From IMG/VR virus record IMGVR_UViG_3300022752_000425, positions 1-22,410 of that record: a stretch of 22,410 nt of DNA. One strand, written 5' to 3'. Positions within the stretch are counted from its first letter, which is position 1; the number at the start of each line of letters is the position of its first letter. The notes below the pieces were generated by a model. The model was given only the letters and a program-made list of their open reading frames with translations. It was not told where the DNA came from and did not search any database. This DNA comes from a virus. This document shows positions 2,838 through 21,301 of the stretch, in pieces. A program made the position numbers and the translations under genes.

Positions 2838-2915
2838 GAGAGGGTTGGCAGTGAAGTTACGAATGAAGAGGTTGAACTAAAGACCATCAAGTAGAAGCAC
2901 TGGCCTCTCGTTGAT
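2838..2915 (-). other. In-frame N-terminal segment of the exonuclease interrupted by an amber codon
   Basis: Reading the exonuclease frame upstream of 2837 gives INERPVLLLDGL, then TAG (2879-2877), then FNLFIRNFTANPL, then the annotated ATG. The flanks look like one conserved 5'-nuclease N-terminus in which a continuous DG(L/M)N-L/T-F-I/L-R would be expected. Relative to that pattern there is an extra six bases (TAG plus one sense codon). The Asp of LLLDG is the expected first metal ligand. The segment overlaps the last residues of the homing endonuclease gene. Possible in-frame starts are ATC at 2915, GTG at 2921 or GTG at 2900; none is an ATG. Confidence 0.75.
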
Positions 2916-3885
2916 GGTCACCTCCTCTATATCTTGAAATGACATTCTCGATTGCTCCGTGAAAGTCAAAAGTTAGATCATACTGCCATATCACATCGAT
3001 ATTATACCCACGAGATTTTGCAAGTTCAAGCTTCGCAGAGTCTCTCTCCCAAATCTCGGAGGCTTCCACTCCTCTGTGCTTGTCGTAGTGATCTGCTTCA
3101 TAGATTGAGGGATTGAGGTGCCAGTAGTCGCCATTGACCTCAATGAGAAGATTGAGCTCTTCTATGAAGATGTCATAAACTCTTCCCAAGACCCTGTAAG
3201 AGTGTCTGCACTTGTAGCGAGAGGAGATCTCATCAAAAACTTTCATTTCTAGTTTGCTTCTCCACAAACCATTCCCACTATCAAACGCTCCACGTTCCCA
3301 CATTTTCTTTGCAGCGTGTGACATAAGCACTTTTGAAGCGTCTGAGTGTTTCTTCCCCAAGTTCCAATTTTGACCACCTCTCACATAGAACCTCTTTCTA
3401 GAGAGACTCATCTTTTCTTTCGTCTCAGCTGAGTGTGAGACCCTTTTTCTGCCTTTCATCTTTTCAGAAAAAGACTTATAGACACCACTCTTGATCTTGG
3501 TTTCTTTTGCGAGAGATGCTCCTCTGAGATATGACTCTTTGGTTCTCAAGGGACCTTGCGTAGCGATGCGTTCTCTAAGTGAAAGTGAGATTTTTTGTTT
3601 TGTCGTCTCGTTTCTGATCTTCCCAGAATTTCCCTTGGATATCTTAGACTTTGTATCATCAGACATGGGACCACGAGTGCTGCCAAGATTTGCTTTGGCA
3701 GCAGCAGTAGTGAACCTGGTTATTCTCGTCTTTTTTGCTATCTCAGCATAGCACTCAGCACCGAGACTCTCCTTGAGAACTTTAACAGTCTTGTTCCTTC
3801 CACACTTCCACAGGACTCTAACCTCTTCGATTGTTGAGCCCTGTGAAAATTTCAGAATCCCTAGTGCAAGTTCTTCTTCAGTCAT
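2887..3885 (-). CDS. Free-standing homing endonuclease, NUMOD3 repeats plus Vsr-like nuclease domain
   Basis: This 332-residue selfish nuclease would cut a sequence in related phages lacking it and spread by repair. The N-terminal 60 residues look like a helix-turn-helix recognition segment. Residues about 70-195 hold at least three lysine/serine-rich NUMOD3-type DNA-binding repeats (MSDDTKSKISKGNSGK at 74-89, HSAETKEKMSLSRK at 151-164, KHSDASKVLMSHAAKK at 179-194). The C-terminal 120 residues carry a Vsr/EDxHD-type nuclease core: SKLEMKV (E213), VYDIFIEE (D238) and LLIEVNGDYWH (E249, D253, H256). AGGAG lies 7 bases before the ATG. The gene fills the space between uvsX and the exonuclease, appears more AT-rich than its neighbours, and its 3' end overlaps the exonuclease N-terminal frame. 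I saw no second exon upstream, so it is not obviously intron-borne. Confidence 0.85.
   Translation of the reverse strand: MTEEELALGILKFSQGSTIEEVRVLWKCGRNKTVKVLKESLGAECYAEIAKKTRITRFTTAAAKANLGSTRGPMSDDTKSKISKGNSGKIRNETTKQKISLSLRERIATQGPLRTKESYLRGASLAKETKIKSGVYKSFSEKMKGRKRVSHSAETKEKMSLSRKRFYVRGGQNWNLGKKHSDASKVLMSHAAKKMWERGAFDSGNGLWRSKLEMKVFDEISSRYKCRHSYRVLGRVYDIFIEELNLLIEVNGDYWHLNPSIYEADHYDKHRGVEASEIWERDSAKLELAKSRGYNIDVIWQYDLTFDFHGAIENVISRYRGGDHQREASAST
2918..2926 (-). promoter_or_regulatory. Near-perfect Shine-Dalgarno AGGAGGTGA before the exonuclease N-terminal segment
   Basis: On the minus strand AGGAGGTGA matches nine bases complementary to the 3' end of bacterial 16S rRNA. The core GGAGG is 5 bases from ATC at 2915, which occupies the place where a start codon would be expected in the exonuclease frame. 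It lies inside the end of the homing endonuclease gene, so it probably predates that gene's arrival as the exonuclease ribosome site. Confidence 0.7.
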
Positions 3886-7277: not shown

Positions 7278-8414
7278 CTAGGTATTCTCCATCTCTAGTG
7301 TCTTAACACTGAGATAGAACTTCCCGAGAGGCTCGACTTCAACTTCAAGGCCTGTCTTTGATAGCTCTGAAAGGAGATCTTTCTCTGCGTCTACGACAAG
7401 TGCATCGTGGATGACGAACAAGGGCACCATCTCAGCAAACCTATTCAGGACTTTTGAGAATCCTGTCAGTGCAACATCAACAGCGGTAGATTGGACAAAG
7501 TACGGGAGTTTCAGTCGTTCATCGTCGACCACCAGCTTTCGACCATATAGGTTACCCAATTCCCATCCGCTCAGATATCTCTCGTGTATCTGCGGTACTC
7601 GGAAGAACCTTCCGATGACTGAGGAAGGAATGGAGGATTCGCCTCTCTGTCCATAGAGAGCAGAGATCGTCGCAACCTTGAGCTGTGCACGGGTGTGCTG
7701 GGAACCTATCTCAGCTCGCATTGCCTCGTAGATGTCCTGTGGTGCTTCAGGACGAGTGAGGAGAAGTGCTGTACGAGGCTCAAGGGAAACGAAGTCTATG
7801 AAACCAATCGTCCCCTTCCTGAAACGTGACTTGAGTATGTCACGGTGATCCCTGCTAAGGTTGAGAATCTTTGGACCAGATGAGACAGTGAGCCTCCCAG
7901 TCGCAGTGTCATGTGAGTATCTCACTGGACGACAAACCTCACCATCAACTGGTCTGAAAGACTCGAGGAAACCGTTATAGCCCGAAGAAAGTTTCCTCTC
8001 GAGTATCTCGTTGTCAACTAGGGCTGGTTGCAATCTCGTTAGGACGTCCCTGGTCTTCTTTAGCTGCGTAAGATACTTCTCTTCAAGAATCTCGTCTATT
8101 GCTGATCCGCAGTCAGTTGCAACTCTCTTTAGGGCACGAACAAATCGATCCTTACCAAGTGCAAGTGACCAGTCAACTTTCTCACCTGGTCTGACTGACT
8201 CATGCGACTTGCGAATCGCTGGGTTCACGAGATGAGGAACCTCCTGTCCAAAGACAGGAAAGACATCTTCTACTGAGAAGTGTCTTGTCTCATCATCTCC
8301 AAGGACAAAGTCTTCTGTGGAAGGAAGACCCTCGAATTTCCGAAGAGAGTTTCCTGATATCCTGACAGAGTATCCGGTCCCCAAAGCATGGGAAGAGATG
8401 ACGAGACTTGACAT
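7278..8414 (-). CDS. Minimal family A DNA polymerase (polymerase domain only)
   Basis: From the ATG at 8414 this is 378 residues, about the size of the thumb-palm-fingers domain of E. coli Pol I alone. The thumb/palm motif reads HDTATGRLTVSS (about 168-179). Motif A is DFVSLEPR (207-214, catalytic D207). Motif B is RAQLKVATISALYG (242-255) with Arg, Lys and Tyr spaced exactly as in Pol I R754, K758 and Y766. FVQSTAVDVAL (306-316) matches the QGSAAD block, and motif C is VIHDALVVD (334-342, D337). There is no 3'-5' exonuclease or 5' nuclease domain; the 5' nuclease is separate at 1953-2915 and proofreading would need another gene. The position of Pol I F762 is Ile here, and the residue after the motif C Asp is Ala, not Glu. 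No good ribosome site is seen; in-frame TTG starts at 8498 or near 8435 are alternatives. Confidence 0.85.
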   Translation of the reverse strand: MSSLVISSHALGTGYSVRISGNSLRKFEGLPSTEDFVLGDDETRHFSVEDVFPVFGQEVPHLVNPAIRKSHESVRPGEKVDWSLALGKDRFVRALKRVATDCGSAIDEILEEKYLTQLKKTRDVLTRLQPALVDNEILERKLSSGYNGFLESFRPVDGEVCRPVRYSHDTATGRLTVSSGPKILNLSRDHRDILKSRFRKGTIGFIDFVSLEPRTALLLTRPEAPQDIYEAMRAEIGSQHTRAQLKVATISALYGQRGESSIPSSVIGRFFRVPQIHERYLSGWELGNLYGRKLVVDDERLKLPYFVQSTAVDVALTGFSKVLNRFAEMVPLFVIHDALVVDAEKDLLSELSKTGLEVEVEPLGKFYLSVKTLEMENT

Positions 8415-8443
8415 GTAACATTGTAACAGCGTGCAAGAAATTT

Positions 8444-11400
8444 TCAACTCAATTTCGAGTACTCTTCCCACTCGCCCGGTTCTCCTGCATTGAGCCAAAC
8501 CATGAGTGAAGCAGGATCCAACGGAGTCGCCAACCAGGTGTAAAGATTCCCCATGATCTCCTTCTCCCTGTTAGCACCTTGCGCATCGTAGACTCTGCAC
8601 TTCATATTGCCGTTCTTTCCCGGGCGAAGACCGAACATGCTCACTAGGGCGTAGCTCGAGGGATTCGATGGTGAAACGAACGCCAAGACCTCCTTCGGAA
8701 TGTTCTGCACACTCGCTGGTCCCCACACATTCACGACAGTCTTGTTCACGTAGTCAATGCACACGATGCATCCTTCGTTCATCTTCTTGATTTGTTCAGG
8801 CGTGAATGCAAGAATGCTGAAGAACTTGTCTTTCACAGTCCGAGCAAGAACGCTGTCACTGACTGCAGAGTTCACTCCTGGAGGCAGACTGGCTGAACCT
8901 ATTGGAGCGGCCCCACCGGAGCCGCTGCCTCCACCCCCTCCGCCTCCACCACTTCCTCCCGAAGAGCCTCTCGAGGAAGTTCCAACACCCGAAGGAGGCT
9001 TTGGTCGCGAAGGCGCCTTCTTTTCTGCAGGTGGGAGGCCGAGTGCAGCCCTGAGCAAGTCTGACTGGATTTCCAGTTTCTTCTTGGGTGACTCATACTC
9101 TGCGTAGGCATCAGCAGGTGCAGTCAACTTGAGTGAGGTAGTAAACTCACCTGCTGATATCTTGTGCTCTATTCCTGTAATCGCGTAAATGTTGTCTGCA
9201 GTGGTGCCTGTGCTAAAGTCCATGAAGACATACTGCATGTACTGGACTATTGGAAGACCGAGCATTTCGACACTCACCTCGGTGGGTGCAATTCTAAGCG
9301 GAAGCCCTCTGCTTCTGGACAACTCCGGAGTTGCTGAGTTCTCTTTGCTCATTCTCATCATGTTGACAGTCGCCAGCTGTGGGTCGTTCAGTGATGTGAG
9401 GCCTGCGCTTGTGACCATGCCTGATCCCCTGCCGAAGAGTATCGTCGGCAATCCTTGTGAGACGAATCTCTTCGTCTTTTCGATACTCTTGCCCTCCAGC
9501 AACTTCCCGACATCGATCTCGACTGTCACTGCGTCACCTGTCTGTGTCTGCGAGCTGTCAGGTGGACTCTCGTTGACCACTCTAGTGACGACTTCTTTCT
9601 CGATCATCTTCTCGAGGACTGCCTTTCTGTTGGCGTACGTCTTTGTAGAGTTAGTCTCTGGTGCCTTTGTCAGCAACGGGTGCGTCGGACTGTTCATAAG
9701 ACCGAATGCTGTGATGTCACCTGACCTGTTTGCCTTGATGAGATCGAAGAGTGTCCCGAAGGAGGAAGAGGTCTCATCGATGACGTGCATTCTTAGTATT
9801 GACTTTTTGCTATCGGAGTTGGCAGGAATACACTCTGGGTACACTGTGACTTTGGGCATCTTGAACTTTCCATTTGGAATGCCTGCCTTGGAAATGACGT
9901 AGTTCTCGTAGTCAGACTGGTAGACCCTGTAGGCTTCTTGCTTCTTCTCGTCATCAGTGTCTATAGTTCTTCTCTCGTACCCTCCCGTAAGATTGCCATC
10001 GTCGTCTTTCGCAGGCTCATAGAGCTGTCTGAAACCGTAAGGGACAGCAGAGGGGTCGTTGATGAACTCGACAAGAAGTTGCATGACCTGCATGCAGCTC
10101 ACCTTCATGTTAGTCTTGAGAACCTCCTTGAGCTTTTCGTCAAGCTCTGCCTTCGCTATCGGATATTTCGCGATAGAGAGGTCTCTCATGAAAGTAGAGT
10201 ACTCGTTGAAAGTATGAAAGATGAACTGCACCTCATCATACTTGCCAGACTTTGCAAGGGGCTTGCCGACCAGACCGAGAAGAAGCTTTCCGAAAGAAAT
10301 AGAGTTCTCTACTGTGGCATCGCTGGGAGAATCCGATATGTCGCCAATAGTGACTTTCTTCAGTGAAGGGCTCCCAGCCTGTGAGTCAGTGCAAGGAAAT
10401 ATCTCATTTCCATTGAAGATCTCCTTGATCTGTTCGTCTACTGCTGCATCGACAGACTTCTTGTAGATCTGCACCTCACCGTTCACACCAATAAGTCTCT
10501 CTATGTCTTCAACGAGTGTCTTGTCTGCGTCTTTTGACTTCTTTAGCGAACTGAGCTTCACCTGAAGAGTCTTTAGCGCTTCCTCGTCGAGTGACAGTGC
10601 GGAAGACTCTGAGCTCACTGCATTGAGTATTGTTTCATCGTACAGTCTATTGAACTTTTCGCCGCCCTTGCCTCTCAGCTCTTCTATTTTCTTGGAGATG
10701 CTCACTATGGCCTCTTTCAGTGCCTGAGAGGCGCTCTGAGTTTTTGCCATTGAGACGTCCACCGTCTGTAGTGCAGAAGCGCCCTTCATGGCTAACGTCA
10801 GCGAGATATTGACCTGTCCAGCATCGTCAAAGCTAAAGGAGGCATTTACTATCGCGTACTTCTCTCTCACCTTCAGACCATCCAAGAAAACTCCAACAGG
10901 ATTTTCTTCTGCAGCTGTGCCTGCATTTCCCGAAGGGTGACTCCATCCATACTCTATGTCGAACTCTGTTCCCTGGTATATGTCTGGTTTTATGAACGGT
11001 GCTATCTGTGCAAGTCTGCTTCTGTCATGCAGGGTGATCTCCATCTGTGCTGTCTTGTAAGACAGCCACCCTGTAGTGGGTGAAACGTTGAAACTCAGTG
11101 AGTTCAACGACATAAAGGGTCTGAAGCGATCAAGGGCTCTCGTATACCCAGAAGTTGGATTAAAGGCGTGAGAATTAGGAGGCGAAACCAAGGTCTGGGG
11201 AGATGTAAAGACTTCCATCGAGGAGACTTGTGAAAGTATCTCATTGTCGACCTTCCTCTCCAGCATAATCATGTCAAACACATTCTCACCGGCGTCGCCG
11301 ACAGCAAGAGACTGGATCGATCCGGCTCCATTCAGATACGTGACGAGTGATAGTCCCTGCAGTCTGCCTACGGAGTCTATGGGACTTGATCCGCTGACAG

Positions 11401-12004
11401 TTATCCTCGTGTTGATGTATGGTACACACCGGGACATTTCTACTGTGGAGATGAGTGATGTGAATATGCTGAGAGGTGCAGCATCACGAGTAGTCATTCC
11501 AAGACGAGGGTTTATCAGCTCTATCGCGTACAGTGTAGGTGACTTCTTGGACTCAGGGACACTGCACTTTTCTTTCGTAGAAGGCAGAACGTTCTCGTTG
11601 TTCATCAGACCGGCATACGCAAGCGTAAATTCTGTGTTGTCGCCACCGTAGAGCTGTTTGGAATTGACGTAGCAGGGAAGGTCTGCCTTTTTGTCGACAT
11701 TCGTCTCGTACGGGAAAGTTATTCTGAGAAACCCTTTGACTGCCTCTTTCGTGTCCTTGTCATCACCGATGAAATCGTCCATCGATTTTGCAAACTCACT
11801 TACAAACACGCCACCCTTTACGACAGAGACGAGATTATCAGCGAGTTTCTCTAATTTTGCATCCAGTGTGGTCTCGGCAACACCTGCATTGGAACCAGTA
11901 GCTAGCAGTGCTGAAAGGAGTGCCTTGTCGCTAGAAGAGTCGGTGTACCCTCGCAACCTGGAGACTGCATCGTCGAATCTCGCGTTCTTATTTGCAATGC
12001 TCAT
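8444..12004 (-). CDS. Large baseplate/tail hub-like structural protein
   Basis: A 1186-residue protein I assign to the baseplate from position and style. Residues about 300-410 contain a beta-rich core (SLNSLSFNVSPTTGWLSYKT, an FDIEYGWSHP segment, and VNASFSFDDAGQVNISLTLA) like that in hub-type proteins of large phages. A charged coiled-coil-prone region follows (about 425-530). Near 1012-1031 is a Ser/Gly linker with a run of eight glycines (+ strand 8910-8970), followed by a separate C-terminal module of about 155 residues (1032-1186, containing CIVCIDY and NGNMKCRVYDAQG). I do not recognise that module. The ATG overlaps the TGA of the 94-residue gene (ATGA). No terminator separates its end from the polymerase gene. 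A virion role is fairly sure; a gp27-type hub role is a guess. Confidence 0.7.
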   Translation of the reverse strand: MSIANKNARFDDAVSRLRGYTDSSSDKALLSALLATGSNAGVAETTLDAKLEKLADNLVSVVKGGVFVSEFAKSMDDFIGDDKDTKEAVKGFLRITFPYETNVDKKADLPCYVNSKQLYGGDNTEFTLAYAGLMNNENVLPSTKEKCSVPESKKSPTLYAIELINPRLGMTTRDAAPLSIFTSLISTVEMSRCVPYINTRITVSGSSPIDSVGRLQGLSLVTYLNGAGSIQSLAVGDAGENVFDMIMLERKVDNEILSQVSSMEVFTSPQTLVSPPNSHAFNPTSGYTRALDRFRPFMSLNSLSFNVSPTTGWLSYKTAQMEITLHDRSRLAQIAPFIKPDIYQGTEFDIEYGWSHPSGNAGTAAEENPVGVFLDGLKVREKYAIVNASFSFDDAGQVNISLTLAMKGASALQTVDVSMAKTQSASQALKEAIVSISKKIEELRGKGGEKFNRLYDETILNAVSSESSALSLDEEALKTLQVKLSSLKKSKDADKTLVEDIERLIGVNGEVQIYKKSVDAAVDEQIKEIFNGNEIFPCTDSQAGSPSLKKVTIGDISDSPSDATVENSISFGKLLLGLVGKPLAKSGKYDEVQFIFHTFNEYSTFMRDLSIAKYPIAKAELDEKLKEVLKTNMKVSCMQVMQLLVEFINDPSAVPYGFRQLYEPAKDDDGNLTGGYERRTIDTDDEKKQEAYRVYQSDYENYVISKAGIPNGKFKMPKVTVYPECIPANSDSKKSILRMHVIDETSSSFGTLFDLIKANRSGDITAFGLMNSPTHPLLTKAPETNSTKTYANRKAVLEKMIEKEVVTRVVNESPPDSSQTQTGDAVTVEIDVGKLLEGKSIEKTKRFVSQGLPTILFGRGSGMVTSAGLTSLNDPQLATVNMMRMSKENSATPELSRSRGLPLRIAPTEVSVEMLGLPIVQYMQYVFMDFSTGTTADNIYAITGIEHKISAGEFTTSLKLTAPADAYAEYESPKKKLEIQSDLLRAALGLPPAEKKAPSRPKPPSGVGTSSRGSSGGSGGGGGGGGSGSGGAAPIGSASLPPGVNSAVSDSVLARTVKDKFFSILAFTPEQIKKMNEGCIVCIDYVNKTVVNVWGPASVQNIPKEVLAFVSPSNPSSYALVSMFGLRPGKNGNMKCRVYDAQGANREKEIMGNLYTWLATPLDPASLMVWLNAGEPGEWEEYSKLS

Positions 12005-12285
12005 ATGACCCTGTTGACATCCTGCATGTCAGGTATCCTGAGAAGGGTCCCAGGAGGAACTTGTAGAGACCAACCTATGTTTGATGCAGCAGCAATGACC
12101 CACCAGAGTGTAGAGTCTCCGTACTCGATTCCTGCTATCATGTCAAGACGTTGTGATTCTTGCAGAGTTCGTGTCACGAACCTGATAGCGCCAGAGGAGA
12201 TTCCTATTCTGATATTGTGAACAGTGTTGGAAGTGCCTCTTGCTCTTCCAACACTTATGAGTGGTGCTGTAACGTAACGATTCAT
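12001..12285 (-). CDS. Small LysM/gp53-like or tail protein X-like baseplate protein
   Basis: The 94 residues end with the pattern RLDMIAGIEYGDSTLWWVIA (46-65), then NIGWSLQVPPGTLLRIP (about 69-85). That pattern (a Tyr-Gly-Asp, Leu-Trp-Trp, then VPPGTxLxIP) is shared by LysM-type tail proteins such as P2 gpX and by T4 gp53-like baseplate wedge proteins, which lie next to hub genes. In the virion it probably clamps hub and wedge or binds peptidoglycan. It is linked to both neighbours by overlap: its ATG shares a base with the TAA of the 997-residue gene and its TGA overlaps the hub ATG. The family assignment is from memory of the motif. Confidence 0.7.
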   Translation of the reverse strand: MNRYVTAPLISVGRARGTSNTVHNIRIGISSGAIRFVTRTLQESQRLDMIAGIEYGDSTLWWVIAAASNIGWSLQVPPGTLLRIPDMQDVNRVI

Positions 12286-15286: not shown

Positions 15287-15511
15287 TCACTTCTTTGGCT
15301 TGTGATCTGAGACAGCCCTCGCTATCTCCTCGGGTGTGAAGCTCTGGTTCGCGAATGACTGTGCAAAATTTGCAATCACGCTCTCCATTCTCGAGGTGAG
15401 AGACCTCGAGAACTCCTCCAGCTTCTTCTTCTCCTCTTCGTTGAGCTTCTGCAGTGACTCAATGTACTCTGGTCTCTCGATGAGCTGTTGATATATCGTC
15501 TTTTGCGTCAT
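15287..15511 (-). CDS. Small helical protein after the tape measure
   Basis: Unrecognised 74-residue, highly charged protein that looks mostly alpha-helical (EYIESLQKLNEEEKKKLEEF, about 15-34, coiled-coil prone) with a C-terminal Lys-rich tail (DHKPKK). Its ATG overlaps the tape measure stop (ATGA), so it is translated by coupling. Small helical proteins next to tape measures are often assembly factors, but no motif proves that here. Confidence 0.75.
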   Translation of the reverse strand: MTQKTIYQQLIERPEYIESLQKLNEEEKKKLEEFSRSLTSRMESVIANFAQSFANQSFTPEEIARAVSDHKPKK

Positions 15512-18500
15512 GACCTACCCAGGAAGTCTTGTACTGTGTTGTAGAGCTTTGAGTTGCTCTTTAGCGTGGCCTTGTGAGAGACCTCAAGGATCTCCTTGGC
15601 AATGTCCTCTGCCTTCATTGTGAGATTGAGGTTCACAGTCATCTGAATCGGTTTTCTCTCGATGTTAAGGACTTCTGTCTTCAGTTTGAGCGCATCACCG
15701 AGATGGTCGATAGTAGAGTTCACGTCGATGTCTCCGAGATCTGCGAGAGCATCATTCACTGCCTTGATATCTTCGACGATAGCATTGACGACACCACCGA
15801 GCTGGACGTCCCTGTAAGACTGAAGTTCGTCTGCTATTGCTGCGATGTTGCTTATCCTCGACATCTGGTTCTCGAGGACTGTGAGATTATATGTGCCAGA
15901 AGCGTCTAGCGGTTCACCTGCAAACCGGCTTAGCGATGAAGAGATCTGGTTTATCTGTGAGAACACATTTCTCACTGTGTCGATCTTGCCTCTGTCCGCA
16001 AGTGAGGAATCAGCTATTGCTGAGACTGAGTTAGCAATGCCTGTAGGTCCTGTCAACCCGATTCTCAGAATGTTCAGAGAAGACTCAATTCCCGTGATAG
16101 TTTCTCTGAGGCTCTCTACAGAGTTGTCACTGAACCATCCCGTGTCCATCTCCTGGAATGTCTTGGTCATGCTCTGGAACTGTGAAGCTATCGTCTGGAT
16201 TGCACTCACGGTTCTCAGCAAGCCCTTTGCCTCGTCTTCACTGAGTGACTGTTGTGCAGAGCTCTTGACTGAGGAGATGAGATCAGGCAGTAGAAGGGAC
16301 ATCGATCTCATCATCCTGGAGAGACCACCCACAATTGCGTCTGTCTTGGAGGCAGCGCTCTCGTCAAAGAAACCGACTTCAACACCAGCCAGAGCAGTGA
16401 GAGGCTCCATGAGAGAAGATGCGAGTCCAGCAATCGCTCCAATGACATTTGCTAGAGTCTCGACCTTCTTTAGCTCATCTTCACTCCACGTGAGTGCCAT
16501 TCCCACGAGTGAATTGACGACGTCCTTGATCGAGTCAGTCGAGGTCTTGAGGAACCCTCCAAGAGATTCAACGACTGTGGGTAGGTCGGTGCTCCCGAAC
16601 AGGCTGTTCACTGCAGGAAGCTTACCGACATCTATTGCTATCTTCGCAAAGTTTCCAACAGACTCAATGATAGACCTGAATATGTTCGCCTTCTTTTCTG
16701 TAACAGCAGGGTCTGCCATGTCTATGGAGTTCAGGGTCGAGATGATAGTGACTATGGAAGAGGCAGTGGCCATCATGAAGTCGCCGATGGCTCGAATTCC
16801 ATCACCGGTTGGACTGAGTGCTCTTCTGATCTTCAATATCTGCGTAGTGAGACCTACCACGCCTGTGAGGGCCTCAACAGCCTTTATCACAATGTCAAAG
16901 ATCTTGTTGGCCTTTTCCATGTCGAAACCTGCAGCTTCACTTTCAACGAGATCGACCATCTTGGAGATGCCGATTGCGAAAGCTGCAATACCACCTGTCA
17001 TGAATACAACAGCTCCTGCGAGGCCGGCTATGATAGGAAGTATCAGCCCAGACTGGAAGAGTAGCACTGCACCTGCGCCGACTGCTACAAGAGCAATGGT
17101 AGCAAGTATCGCAAGTCCGACAGTCTTAAAGAGGTCTTCGACTTTCTGGAATGGGGTGTCACCCATCGCCCATATGCCTGCACGGACTGCAGCAGCGAAA
17201 GCAACAAGTCCAACTCCGACCAGCAGTGCAGCACCGAGCACGCCGAGCAGCGCCTTACCTATTGAAGCAGGACTAACCTTGTCTGCTATTTTTGACATTC
17301 CTATCGCAGCAAGAAGCCCGACAGTTGCATTTACCCAGACCATGGCAGCGCTTTCCCAAGATACACCTTGCATAGCTTCAACAGCAAACTTAGTGGCGTA
17401 AGCGAATCCAACAACAGCCACGCTGATGAACGCAATCAGTGCTACGCCGATGGCAAGTGCCTTGACTATGTCAGGATACTTTATCTTCTGCAGTGCATCG
17501 ACCATCTTTCCAAGACCATCGGTGCTCTCAGCCGCCTTTGCAGAAGCCTTCTCTGCACCCTCTGGAACTGGTGGTGCAAATAGCTTTGGTGCTATCTTCT
17601 TGAGAGCAGCTGCAACCAGCCCAGTCGCAACCGATTTGATCAGCGAAGTCGCGAACGCTACTGCAAGATTGTAGGTCAGCAACGCTATGCCGACATTTCT
17701 TATGTAGGGACCTGCAAGCTTGAATAGCTCCCACAGGACTTCCTTGAGTGCCTCCCACATTGCAGGACCAGCTTCGGTGATAGCCTGTAACAGTGGTCCC
17801 ATTATCGATTCGCCTGCACCACCGATTGCAGAGTTCACAGAGCTAGGGTCTTTCAGGTAAGCGCTGAGAGACTTCAGTGCGTCTGTAGCTCCCTCGATGA
17901 GGTACCTTCCGATGCCTCCAAGAACGCCAGCGATAACCTTCCCGAACAAGTCCAGGCCGCCGAGGAACTTCTTTGCACCGTCACCGTCCTTGTCGAAGAA
18001 CCCGAAGAACTTCTCCTTCATTGTCTTCATGAAGTCGCTAACTGCCTTCACTGGGTCTTTGCTGAGATCTCCAAAGAACTTCTTAAATTCCACACCGAGC
18101 TCTTTCAGGAACCCAGAGAATCTCCCTGGTTCGAAGAAGTCTGCGAGACCTCCGAACATGTCCTTCACGCCTGGGAAGACGTCCATGATCATCTTTCCGA
18201 CTTCCATACCGAAGTGCATCGTAAGTTCGAGTGCCCTGGCGAGGTTTCTCATGAGACGCTGGAACTCTGGCGTCCTCGAGAATCCCTTCATGAGACCGTT
18301 GAAGAACTGCGTCATGAAACTGCCGCTCGTCTGTAGTGCCTCAGTCATTCTCTTGATGTTCAAAGAGAGCTTGTCCATGACTTCAGCCTGGCTGAGCTGT
18401 TTCTTGTTGCTCTTGTCAGCCTCCTTCTGGATGTCCTCGTAAGACTTGCCCATGTTCTTGTTGGACAAGGCAAGTGAGACCATGTTCTCATCCAAGCCTG

Positions 18501-19809
18501 CAGACTGTGCAAGCATCGCCTTTTCCTGGCGGCTCATGCTCTCGATTGACTTGCCTGTCGCAGCGAACGCCTGTCGCAACATGTCCAATCTCTTGGCAGG
18601 ATCTTGCTCCTTCATCATCTTCATCGCGTCGATTGTCATGCCAAAGCCTTGGGCAAGCTTTGCAGCATTCTGAGCGGCGTCCTCGAAGTTGTCGAAGGCA
18701 CCCATGAGACCCTCGATATCCTTGATCTCTAGACCTAATTTTCTGACGTACACCGCAGAAGTTATCATCTGCGTCTTCGTCATTGACCCGAACTTGCCCA
18801 TGTTCGTGGCCATGTAACCAAGATCCTTGCCGAGAAGCTTGGAAGAGATTCCGAACTTACTTCCCATCTGAAGCGCAAGATTTCCCATCTCCTGCATCAT
18901 CTGGGTAAGATCTCCGCCCGTTGCTATTGCTATCTGCCCTAGAGCCTTCATTTCCTCGTTTCCGAGACCGAGACCCTTCTGCATGATGAGAATCTTGTCA
19001 GCATTCTGCTCGAATTGACCTTGCAAGACCCCGAAGACCGGCCCCATCGCAGCAGCCGTCTCATTGAGCTCATTCAATGCTGCAGCAAGACCTTCAGGAC
19101 CGTGACCATAAATTCTGGATAGTGAAAGTCCAGTACCAGCTAGATCTCCTCCTGATTTTTGCAGGTCGTTGAAACTGTCGATTACTCCCTTCGCTTCTGC
19201 CTTGTTAAGGTCGCCAAACGTCTCCCTAACATTCTCGTAAGCCTCTCTCAGTGCAGTTGAGCTGTTACTGAGCTCCGCTGCCTTTTCTGTGAGAATCCCA
19301 AAGACTTTTAGCGGTATCGAGAGTAGTGCTGAGCCCATACCAAAGATAGAGCTTGTTATCGAACCCAACATAGAGAAAAGACTGTCCATTTGAGCGCCAG
19401 TCTTCTCGAAAGCATCTCCTAGCTTTTCCCCAAGCGCCTCAGCGGCTTCCTCAGCGGTCTTTGCTTCTTTTCCTACCCTTCTTAGGCCTCTCGCGGCTCC
19501 AAGTGATGCTGGATATATCTCTTTGATAGCAGACTCGGCTCCTTTTGCCGCAGCAGCAACGGCACTGACGGCACCAGACGCTTGGTCTGCTCCACTAGTG
19601 ACCTGTTTCAGACCCTTGTTGATCTCAGCAATATTCTTGACGACATCTTCAAGGTTTTCGCCTCTCATCAGTCTCTGGAACTCAATTGCAAGGGAAAGCT
19701 GTCCCTTCATGAGCTCAGTCTGCTTTACGAGCAGTGCGTTACGAGCAGTGATGGCCTCGTTTATGGCCTTTTGGACTTCAAGATTGCCCGTACCTGTCTC
19801 TTCAGCCAT
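15508..19809 (-). CDS. Tail tape measure protein
   Basis: At 1433 residues this is by far the longest gene, in the tail cassette, with the usual composition: Ala/Gly/Lys/Met-rich, long helices, few Cys. The N-terminal 100 residues are coiled-coil-like (ITARNALLVKQTELMKGQL). Hydrophobic stretches appear near 144-172, 703-740, 776-813, 850-880 and 893-953 (LAILATIALVAVGAGAVLLF in the last), as expected for a protein that enters or lines a membrane channel during DNA ejection. It sets tail length and acts as a scaffold bound by chaperones; by the common rule of about 0.15 nm per residue the tail would be about 215 nm. The ribosome site is weak: the ATG is preceded by GGTGATCAAGA. A terminator precedes the gene; the 74-residue gene overlaps its end. 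Confidence 0.9.
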   Translation of the reverse strand: MAEETGTGNLEVQKAINEAITARNALLVKQTELMKGQLSLAIEFQRLMRGENLEDVVKNIAEINKGLKQVTSGADQASGAVSAVAAAAKGAESAIKEIYPASLGAARGLRRVGKEAKTAEEAAEALGEKLGDAFEKTGAQMDSLFSMLGSITSSIFGMGSALLSIPLKVFGILTEKAAELSNSSTALREAYENVRETFGDLNKAEAKGVIDSFNDLQKSGGDLAGTGLSLSRIYGHGPEGLAAALNELNETAAAMGPVFGVLQGQFEQNADKILIMQKGLGLGNEEMKALGQIAIATGGDLTQMMQEMGNLALQMGSKFGISSKLLGKDLGYMATNMGKFGSMTKTQMITSAVYVRKLGLEIKDIEGLMGAFDNFEDAAQNAAKLAQGFGMTIDAMKMMKEQDPAKRLDMLRQAFAATGKSIESMSRQEKAMLAQSAGLDENMVSLALSNKNMGKSYEDIQKEADKSNKKQLSQAEVMDKLSLNIKRMTEALQTSGSFMTQFFNGLMKGFSRTPEFQRLMRNLARALELTMHFGMEVGKMIMDVFPGVKDMFGGLADFFEPGRFSGFLKELGVEFKKFFGDLSKDPVKAVSDFMKTMKEKFFGFFDKDGDGAKKFLGGLDLFGKVIAGVLGGIGRYLIEGATDALKSLSAYLKDPSSVNSAIGGAGESIMGPLLQAITEAGPAMWEALKEVLWELFKLAGPYIRNVGIALLTYNLAVAFATSLIKSVATGLVAAALKKIAPKLFAPPVPEGAEKASAKAAESTDGLGKMVDALQKIKYPDIVKALAIGVALIAFISVAVVGFAYATKFAVEAMQGVSWESAAMVWVNATVGLLAAIGMSKIADKVSPASIGKALLGVLGAALLVGVGLVAFAAAVRAGIWAMGDTPFQKVEDLFKTVGLAILATIALVAVGAGAVLLFQSGLILPIIAGLAGAVVFMTGGIAAFAIGISKMVDLVESEAAGFDMEKANKIFDIVIKAVEALTGVVGLTTQILKIRRALSPTGDGIRAIGDFMMATASSIVTIISTLNSIDMADPAVTEKKANIFRSIIESVGNFAKIAIDVGKLPAVNSLFGSTDLPTVVESLGGFLKTSTDSIKDVVNSLVGMALTWSEDELKKVETLANVIGAIAGLASSLMEPLTALAGVEVGFFDESAASKTDAIVGGLSRMMRSMSLLLPDLISSVKSSAQQSLSEDEAKGLLRTVSAIQTIASQFQSMTKTFQEMDTGWFSDNSVESLRETITGIESSLNILRIGLTGPTGIANSVSAIADSSLADRGKIDTVRNVFSQINQISSSLSRFAGEPLDASGTYNLTVLENQMSRISNIAAIADELQSYRDVQLGGVVNAIVEDIKAVNDALADLGDIDVNSTIDHLGDALKLKTEVLNIERKPIQMTVNLNLTMKAEDIAKEILEVSHKATLKSNSKLYNTVQDFLGRS

Positions 19810-20205: not shown

Positions 20206-20487
20206 CTACGTGAACCGCCTGAGCTTTGCAGGTACCTGTTGTCTTGACCTGTTCATCATGGCACGTGCCTCTGCGCCATTGTCATGAGCAGCGCGTGTAT
20301 TGCCACCGCTCTTTTCGTTCGACTTCTTGATCTCCTCTCCCAGCCTTCTCAGGAACCACGCACGGTACTGTATCGGCATGTTGTAGCACTCCCAGTAACT
20401 GAAGCCCATGTAGTACATGAGAAGAAAGGAGTGCTCGAGGTAGATCTCTCTATCGCCCGGTGTCAGGCCAAAAGAATGTCGCCCCAA
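20206..20487 (-). CDS. Small tail assembly protein; separate TTG-start gene or frameshift extension
   Basis: The frame has 93 codons counted from a TTG at 20487. The core (REIYLEHSFLLMYYMGFSYW at 13-32, then ECYNMPIQYRAWFLRRLGEE at 33-52) has the FS-YxMP-xxR-WF-L pattern of small proteins that act with gp26-type baseplate or tail chaperone proteins; the last 40 residues are polar and probably disordered. It overlaps the upstream gene by 38 bases in the +1 frame. No ATG occurs before codon 24 (20418). GGAGGTGA at 20504-20497 is 12 bases from the TTG core but perfectly spaced for an ATG (20494) that is in the upstream gene's frame. The frame therefore may be entered by a +1 shift at CGA-TAG instead of from the TTG. 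Confidence 0.65.
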   Translation of the reverse strand: MGRHSFGLTPGDREIYLEHSFLLMYYMGFSYWECYNMPIQYRAWFLRRLGEEIKKSNEKSGGNTRAAHDNGAEARAMMNRSRQQVPAKLRRFT

Positions 20488-21301
20488 GGGGCATTCTCAC
20501 CTCCGACGTCTCATTGCAGGAGGGACAGTCCATGAAACTCTTCATCTCGATTCCTGGTTCATTCCTGTCGATAAACTGCCTGAGCTGTAGTGAGTCCTTG
20601 GCAGGCATGTTCCTGATGAATGAAGAGATCAGCGCCTTGTCAGTCTTTCCATCTACAGAGACAAGGGAGAACTGTAGTCTCGTGGTGACGAGATTATCAG
20701 AAAGTGCACCAGCCTTCTTCTTCCTCTCCTGGATCTGTAGGATCTCCTCCTCATCAGAACCAGTGAGAAAACGGAACCTGATGACCTTCTTGGTCACGGG
20801 AAGCGTGAACTCAAAGAGGTTCTGCCCGACCTCAACAGGCTGTATCTCAAGCGACTTGATGGGAAGCTGTGAAAGGTCAAACTCCTGCTTTGACTTGGTC
20901 GCACACAATGGGCAATCGACCTCCGCTGTGTACTCTGAGCCGTAACCGGTGATCCTGAGTGCCACCATGATTGCATTTCTGTCGCCAGAGATCATCTTGT
21001 TGACGTCAATTCTCTTGTCGATGAGGCAAGACTGGAGAAGTGTTGTGATGACAGTTCCCTTCTTGATGAGAGCCCTTGACGTGAGGATGTCCTCCTCCCT
21101 GGCCGTCATTGCACGAATGTCAATAGTCTCCTGTCCATGTAGTGCGTTGTCTGTTGGGTAGACGATACCCTTGGAGGGGAGGGGAACAGACTCAACGGGA
21201 ATCTCGAACCCGAAGTCGTCCTTCATTACGTCCCTTGCGGGAATGGGGCTTGATGGCGATCCACCGCCGAATACTGAGTTCTTATCGCTACGGTCTGACA
21301 A
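20450..21301 (-). CDS. T4 gp26/gp51-type baseplate assembly protein with two CxxC knuckles
   Basis: The 283 residues match the phage T4 baseplate protein family (Pfam T4_baseplate, from memory): VPLPSKGIVYP (39-49), IDIRAMTAREEDILTS (60-75), KKGTVITTLLQSCLID (80-95) and SGDRNAIMVALRITGYG (105-121). Two Cys pairs, CPLC (130-133) and CPSC (259-262), probably bind one zinc. The gene occupies the place, upstream of the tape measure, where many phages have their tail assembly chaperone. Translation starts at TTG (21301): AGGAG lies 8 bases upstream and no in-frame ATG is near. The end, FFWPDTGR then TAG, overlaps the next frame. A strong Shine-Dalgarno plus ATG (20494) lies inside the last 14 codons. 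A terminator and leader of about 70 bases precede it. Confidence 0.85.
   Translation of the reverse strand: MSDRSDKNSVFGGGSPSSPIPARDVMKDDFGFEIPVESVPLPSKGIVYPTDNALHGQETIDIRAMTAREEDILTSRALIKKGTVITTLLQSCLIDKRIDVNKMISGDRNAIMVALRITGYGSEYTAEVDCPLCATKSKQEFDLSQLPIKSLEIQPVEVGQNLFEFTLPVTKKVIRFRFLTGSDEEEILQIQERKKKAGALSDNLVTTRLQFSLVSVDGKTDKALISSFIRNMPAKDSLQLRQFIDRNEPGIEMKSFMDCPSCNETSEVRMPLGATFFWPDTGR

Follow-up and report, generated by a model that had tools for sequence, protein, structure and literature searches.

A +1 ribosomal frameshift almost certainly extends a tail-assembly chaperone of the T4 gp26/gp51 family in a viral genome fragment

On the minus strand of the window, by which we refer to the entire 22,410-base fragment of an uncultivated, T4-like phage that was analysed, the 3' end of a gene in the tail region is overlapped by a second open frame, raising the question of how the sequence encoded in this frame is expressed. 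The order on this strand comprises the final portion of a probable tail tube gene (assigned from its last residues), a 264-aa ORF, the gene in question (gene 1), the extension in its +1 frame, a 78-aa ORF and the probable tape measure gene, with annotated tape measures of relatives located downstream at the position of the 1433-aa ORF of the window (Table 1). Gene 1 matches the PF12322 family containing T4 gp26 and gp51 with 66.4 bits (curated cut-off 24.5, E 3.8e-18) and phrog_150 with an E-value of 3.4e-22 (hmmscan). It ends with CGA TAG at 20455-20450, and the +1 frame is open through this stop as far as 20206, predicting a fusion protein of 364 residues. The CGA TAG end and the fusion of about 364 residues had been recognized in a first-pass annotation, as had the lack of an ATG in the +1 frame ahead of its conserved region and the presence of GGAGGTGA at 20504-20497, whose spacing fits a frame-0 ATG at 20494 that is followed by the TAG after 14 codons, and all of them are confirmed by our inspection. 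The sole candidate for an alternative start in the window is a TTG at 20487. No tRNA genes were found in the 22,410-base fragment. As explanation for the overlap, we propose a programmed +1 ribosomal frameshift, which almost certainly produces the longer of two versions of a tail-assembly chaperone.

Table 1. Features of the chaperone locus in the window.
Feature	Coordinates	Strand	Basis
Gene 1, TAC-N ('G'-like), 283 aa, TTG start	20450..21301	-	PF12322 T4_baseplate / phrog_150 (hmmscan)
Conserved shift region TTC TTT TGG CCT GAC ACC	20459..20476	-	Conservation in relatives
C-terminal ('T') domain in +1 frame, 87 aa plus stop, predicted tail of TAC-NC	20206..20469	-	Conserved in relatives; helix-short helix-helix model
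Shine-Dalgarno-like GGAGG, 26 nt upstream of slip codon	20500..20504	-	Position conserved
Probable tape measure protein, 1433 aa, expected chaperone client	15508..19809	-	Weak phrog_10613 match (E 0.0063) and position of relatives' annotation

To characterize the conservation of the junction, we compared the window with 80 relatives of gene 1, which provided 79 loci with a complete junction and two more that run off their contig, and calculated codon statistics on 46 non-redundant loci. In each of the 79 loci, the window included, gene 1 contains an in-frame TTY TTT TGG CCT whose TTT TGG precedes the stop by 15-21 nt. In all of them, the +1 frame also continues without a stop codon through the junction and beyond the end of gene 1, encoding a conserved domain, an arrangement that is far beyond chance. 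Since the arrangement is shared by independent assemblies, a one-base sequencing error fusing the two frames, considered initially, is ruled out. The invariant motif, found 21 nt before the stop in the window, is absent from the first-pass annotation, which had placed the shift at CGA-TAG. Whereas its general proposal of a chaperone pair resembling lambda G/GT and joined by a +1 shift is strongly supported, CGA-TAG was dropped as the shift point because it is not conserved: the stop and the codons preceding it vary freely and CGA TAG is found in only 5/79 loci, whereas TTT-TGG-CCT is unchanged in 46/46 non-redundant loci. Within this motif, the second phenylalanine is always encoded by TTT (46/46, usage 56%) and the first by either TTT (34) or TTC (12), the proline by CCT (46/46, usage 31%) and the following aspartate by GAC (38/38, usage 41%), while the next-best columns for Phe, Pro and Asp reach just 0.76, 0.48 and 0.52. 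Codons upstream of the site vary among synonyms, in contrast to the fixed TTT, CCT and GAC, so that the constraint switches from a single frame to two frames at the TTT. Probabilities based on these usage values are uncorrected for shared ancestry, and part of the constraint on the three codons is imposed by two-frame coding and not by slipping itself. The conserved residues of the +1 frame begin at GGC-CTG, with the GGC directly following TTT-T. No conserved RNA structure was detected near the shift site (-1.56 kcal/mol, no compensatory changes).

Related sites are found in other lineages. In a second clade, typified by the Flavobacterium phage immuto (38% identity) and about 36% identical, a TTT-YTW-TGG-CCT motif is kept in 78/79 loci (as TTT-TTT, TTT-CTT or TTT-CTA), and the remaining one contains TTT CTT TAC. 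In four loci of this clade TGG is preceded by CTA, and there the slip would thus occur one codon earlier. Rhodothermus RM378 and Microcystis Mel-JY01 both contain TTT TTT TGG. In more distant Gram-positive and actinophage relatives, too, a site containing TTT is followed by an extension in the +1 frame, with a slip codon that can be placed only approximately. In the jumbo-phage relatives PA5oct, Paride and Atu_ph07, the extension is found in the -1 frame, with a T_TTT_TTC heptamer at the same Phe-Phe. In jumbo-phage loci (L181, L182, L184 and L085) this heptamer stands in place of the +1 site, and LR756511 either resembles the -1-type jumbo-phage relatives or uses a separate ATG. A search for plasmid homologues of two relatives did not return any.

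Considered as a whole, the locus is best explained by one chaperone produced in two forms through a +1 slip at UUC_UUU_UGG, an interpretation that we hold with high confidence. Its foundations, comprising the dual coding, the invariant slip site, the absence of alternative starts, the family membership and the homology of the T domain to the tail of gp51, are established at the level of sequence. The site, UUC_UUU_UGG_CCU in the window, is located 21 nt upstream of the gene 1 stop, with the slippery UUU_U at 20473-20470. We envisage that the majority of ribosomes would terminate at 20450, resulting in the short form TAC-N, while a presumed minority would pause at UUC_UUU_UGG with a tRNA on UUU that is likely tRNA-Phe. 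This tRNA would then slip from the UUU at 20473-20471 onto the overlapping UUU at 20472-20470, so that GGC-CUG-ACA would be decoded next in the +1 frame, leading to the 364-residue long form TAC-NC with its predicted helical C-terminal domain. By analogy to lambda gpG and gpGT, which are both needed in a set ratio, the short form might serve to coat the product of the downstream tape measure gene, and subunits of the tail tube might be recruited by the C-terminal domain.

Alternatively, the domain in the +1 frame could be the product of a separate overlapping gene with a non-ATG start, namely the TTG at 20487, preceded by the Shine-Dalgarno-like GGAGG at 20504. Both the TTG and GGAGGTGA are present in the window and public records carry shortened ORF annotations in this frame. 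However, the 'odd TTG start' initially considered for the second frame fails as an alternative, since an upstream ATG, GTG or TTG in the +1 frame is absent from 44/79 loci (28/46 non-redundant ones), and 19/46 non-redundant loci also lack CTG and ATH. Approximately 17 conserved residues would be lost on initiation at the usual first downstream in-frame ATG, which lies about 55 nt 3' of the slip, and in the second clade there is no apparent start codon just 3' of the Shine-Dalgarno-like element. We thus regard a separate gene as very unlikely. The GGAGG itself is found exactly at -26 from the slip codon in 32/46 loci of the window clade, against a per-position frequency of 0.0009 in the rest of the gene. 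In 22/30 representatives of the second clade it occupies -28 or -29 (background 0.0002), and two codon registers are represented there. A shared start codon following this element is not apparent in relatives of either clade, and its placement points to selection at the level of RNA. Known Shine-Dalgarno stimulators of frameshifting are located closer to the shift codon. It is a tentative and rather doubtful proposal that GGAGG would act as a new type of long-spaced +1 stimulator and that, within the family, one and the same Phe-Phe would have seen the shift change its direction between +1 and -1.

The change of frame could in principle also result from a -2 shift, which would lead to an identical product frame and which has been reported for the tail genes of phage Mu, but re-pairing at UUC_UUU would be poor, whereas it would be perfect for a +1 movement from UUU to UUU, making this mechanism highly improbable. 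Finally, a mixed mRNA pool originating from slippage of the polymerase on a run of T, present with seven residues in many relatives, is of very low probability, as such slippage generally requires longer runs and 12 non-redundant loci, among them the window, contain TTC TTT T with a run of only four, while 17/30 second-clade representatives contain TTTCTTTGG.

Further insight into the long form predicted from the +1 slip was obtained from its relation to the proteins of T4. T4 gp26 matches the entire PF12322 profile and gp51 matches it via residues 1-201 of 249. In an alignment of nine T4-type phages, gp51 consists of a gp26-like domain followed by about 45-50 residues that are absent from gp26, with the end of T4 gp26 coinciding with the slip position and gp51 running on into a T-like tail. 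A profile of diverse T domains aligns to residues 204-248 of gp51 with an hhalign score of 26.4 (null maximum 16.3 in 300 column shuffles) but does not match gp26; this profile was chosen after the T profile of the window clade alone had failed to match gp51. As gp51 is composed of a gp26-like part and a C-terminal extension with homology to the domain in the shifted frame, T4 has a gene of its own for each of the two forms, short and long. This is not the arrangement found in the window and 78 relatives, where the gene is continued by a +1 extension, and no second gp26/gp51 gene was identified among the eight ORFs scanned in the window, which is a fragment. AlphaFold provides a moderate model of the isolated 87-residue T domain (pLDDT 74.5, pTM 0.51) with helices at 4-21, 25-30 and 33-53, whereas those in the tail of a gp51 homologue (pLDDT 84.5) are predicted at 206-221, 226-231 and 234-248. 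The helix order, on which the comparison of the two models is based, is alike in both. The gp51-homologue model matched other phage baseplate proteins, including that of SP-15, in BFVD and nothing significant in the PDB, where no solved structure is related in sequence to T4 gp51 either. DUF6760 was rejected as the identity of the T domain, as the match in the window reaches just E 0.036 and is absent from other T domains scanned.

The proposed system resembles lambda gpG/gpGT in that a single gene, located immediately before the tape measure, would give rise to a short and a frameshifted long product, with the shift near the 3' end of this gene, where the window clade and the second clade both contain their conserved site. 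Unlike in lambda, where the shift is -1, it would proceed by +1 at UUU_UGG in a protein of the PF12322 family. The X_XXY_YYZ heptamer with -1 shift of the lambda type is thus not that of the window, and a -1 pattern is instead found in the relatives PA5oct, Paride and Atu_ph07. In prfB (RF2), too, the slip is by +1 and leads to an overlapping codon rich in U, and the CUU_U of the second clade bears likeness to this site. In prfB, however, the A site contains a stop codon instead of UGG, and its Shine-Dalgarno stimulator is directly adjacent to the shift site and not 26-29 nt away. A +1 direction is described as very likely for the tail frameshift of the haloarchaeal myovirus HSTV-2 in a passage of a 2016 review, which also refers to the G/GT frameshift as general in long-tailed phages 'except T4' (PMC5009743). 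The identification of T4-like chaperone genes with a mechanism other than frameshifting is indicated by the title of Vladimirov et al., 2022 (Virology; reference 76 of PMC12846349). In the open-access papers searched, we did not find a prior report of a +1 site at UUU_UGG. The window and its related lineages would thus show the T4 chaperone family to employ a frameshift, in +1 direction, with the two-gene form of T4 as an alternative solution, and they offer, for reporter tests, a compact +1 site that is made up of sense codons and deeply conserved.

By their coordinates, small annotated 'hypothetical' ORFs coincide with the T-domain frame in L081 (3339-3449), L087 (3255-3374), L088 (3240-3395), L089 (3192-3374), L182 (2888-3010) and L183 (3201-3377). 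Each of these probably represents a fragment of the frameshifted protein, which suggests that several such entries in public phage records represent the tail of a fusion protein. Elsewhere in the window, a 332-aa ORF between replication-type genes (2887-3885) has the look of a homing endonuclease by eye. The ORF at 7278-8498, which contains an HDA motif and was judged by eye to be similar to family A DNA polymerases, shares a 55-base overlap with a 1186-aa ORF at 8444-12004. The 94-aa product of positions 12001-12285 is baseplate wedge-like, with a match to phrog_7145 at E 7.6e-8.
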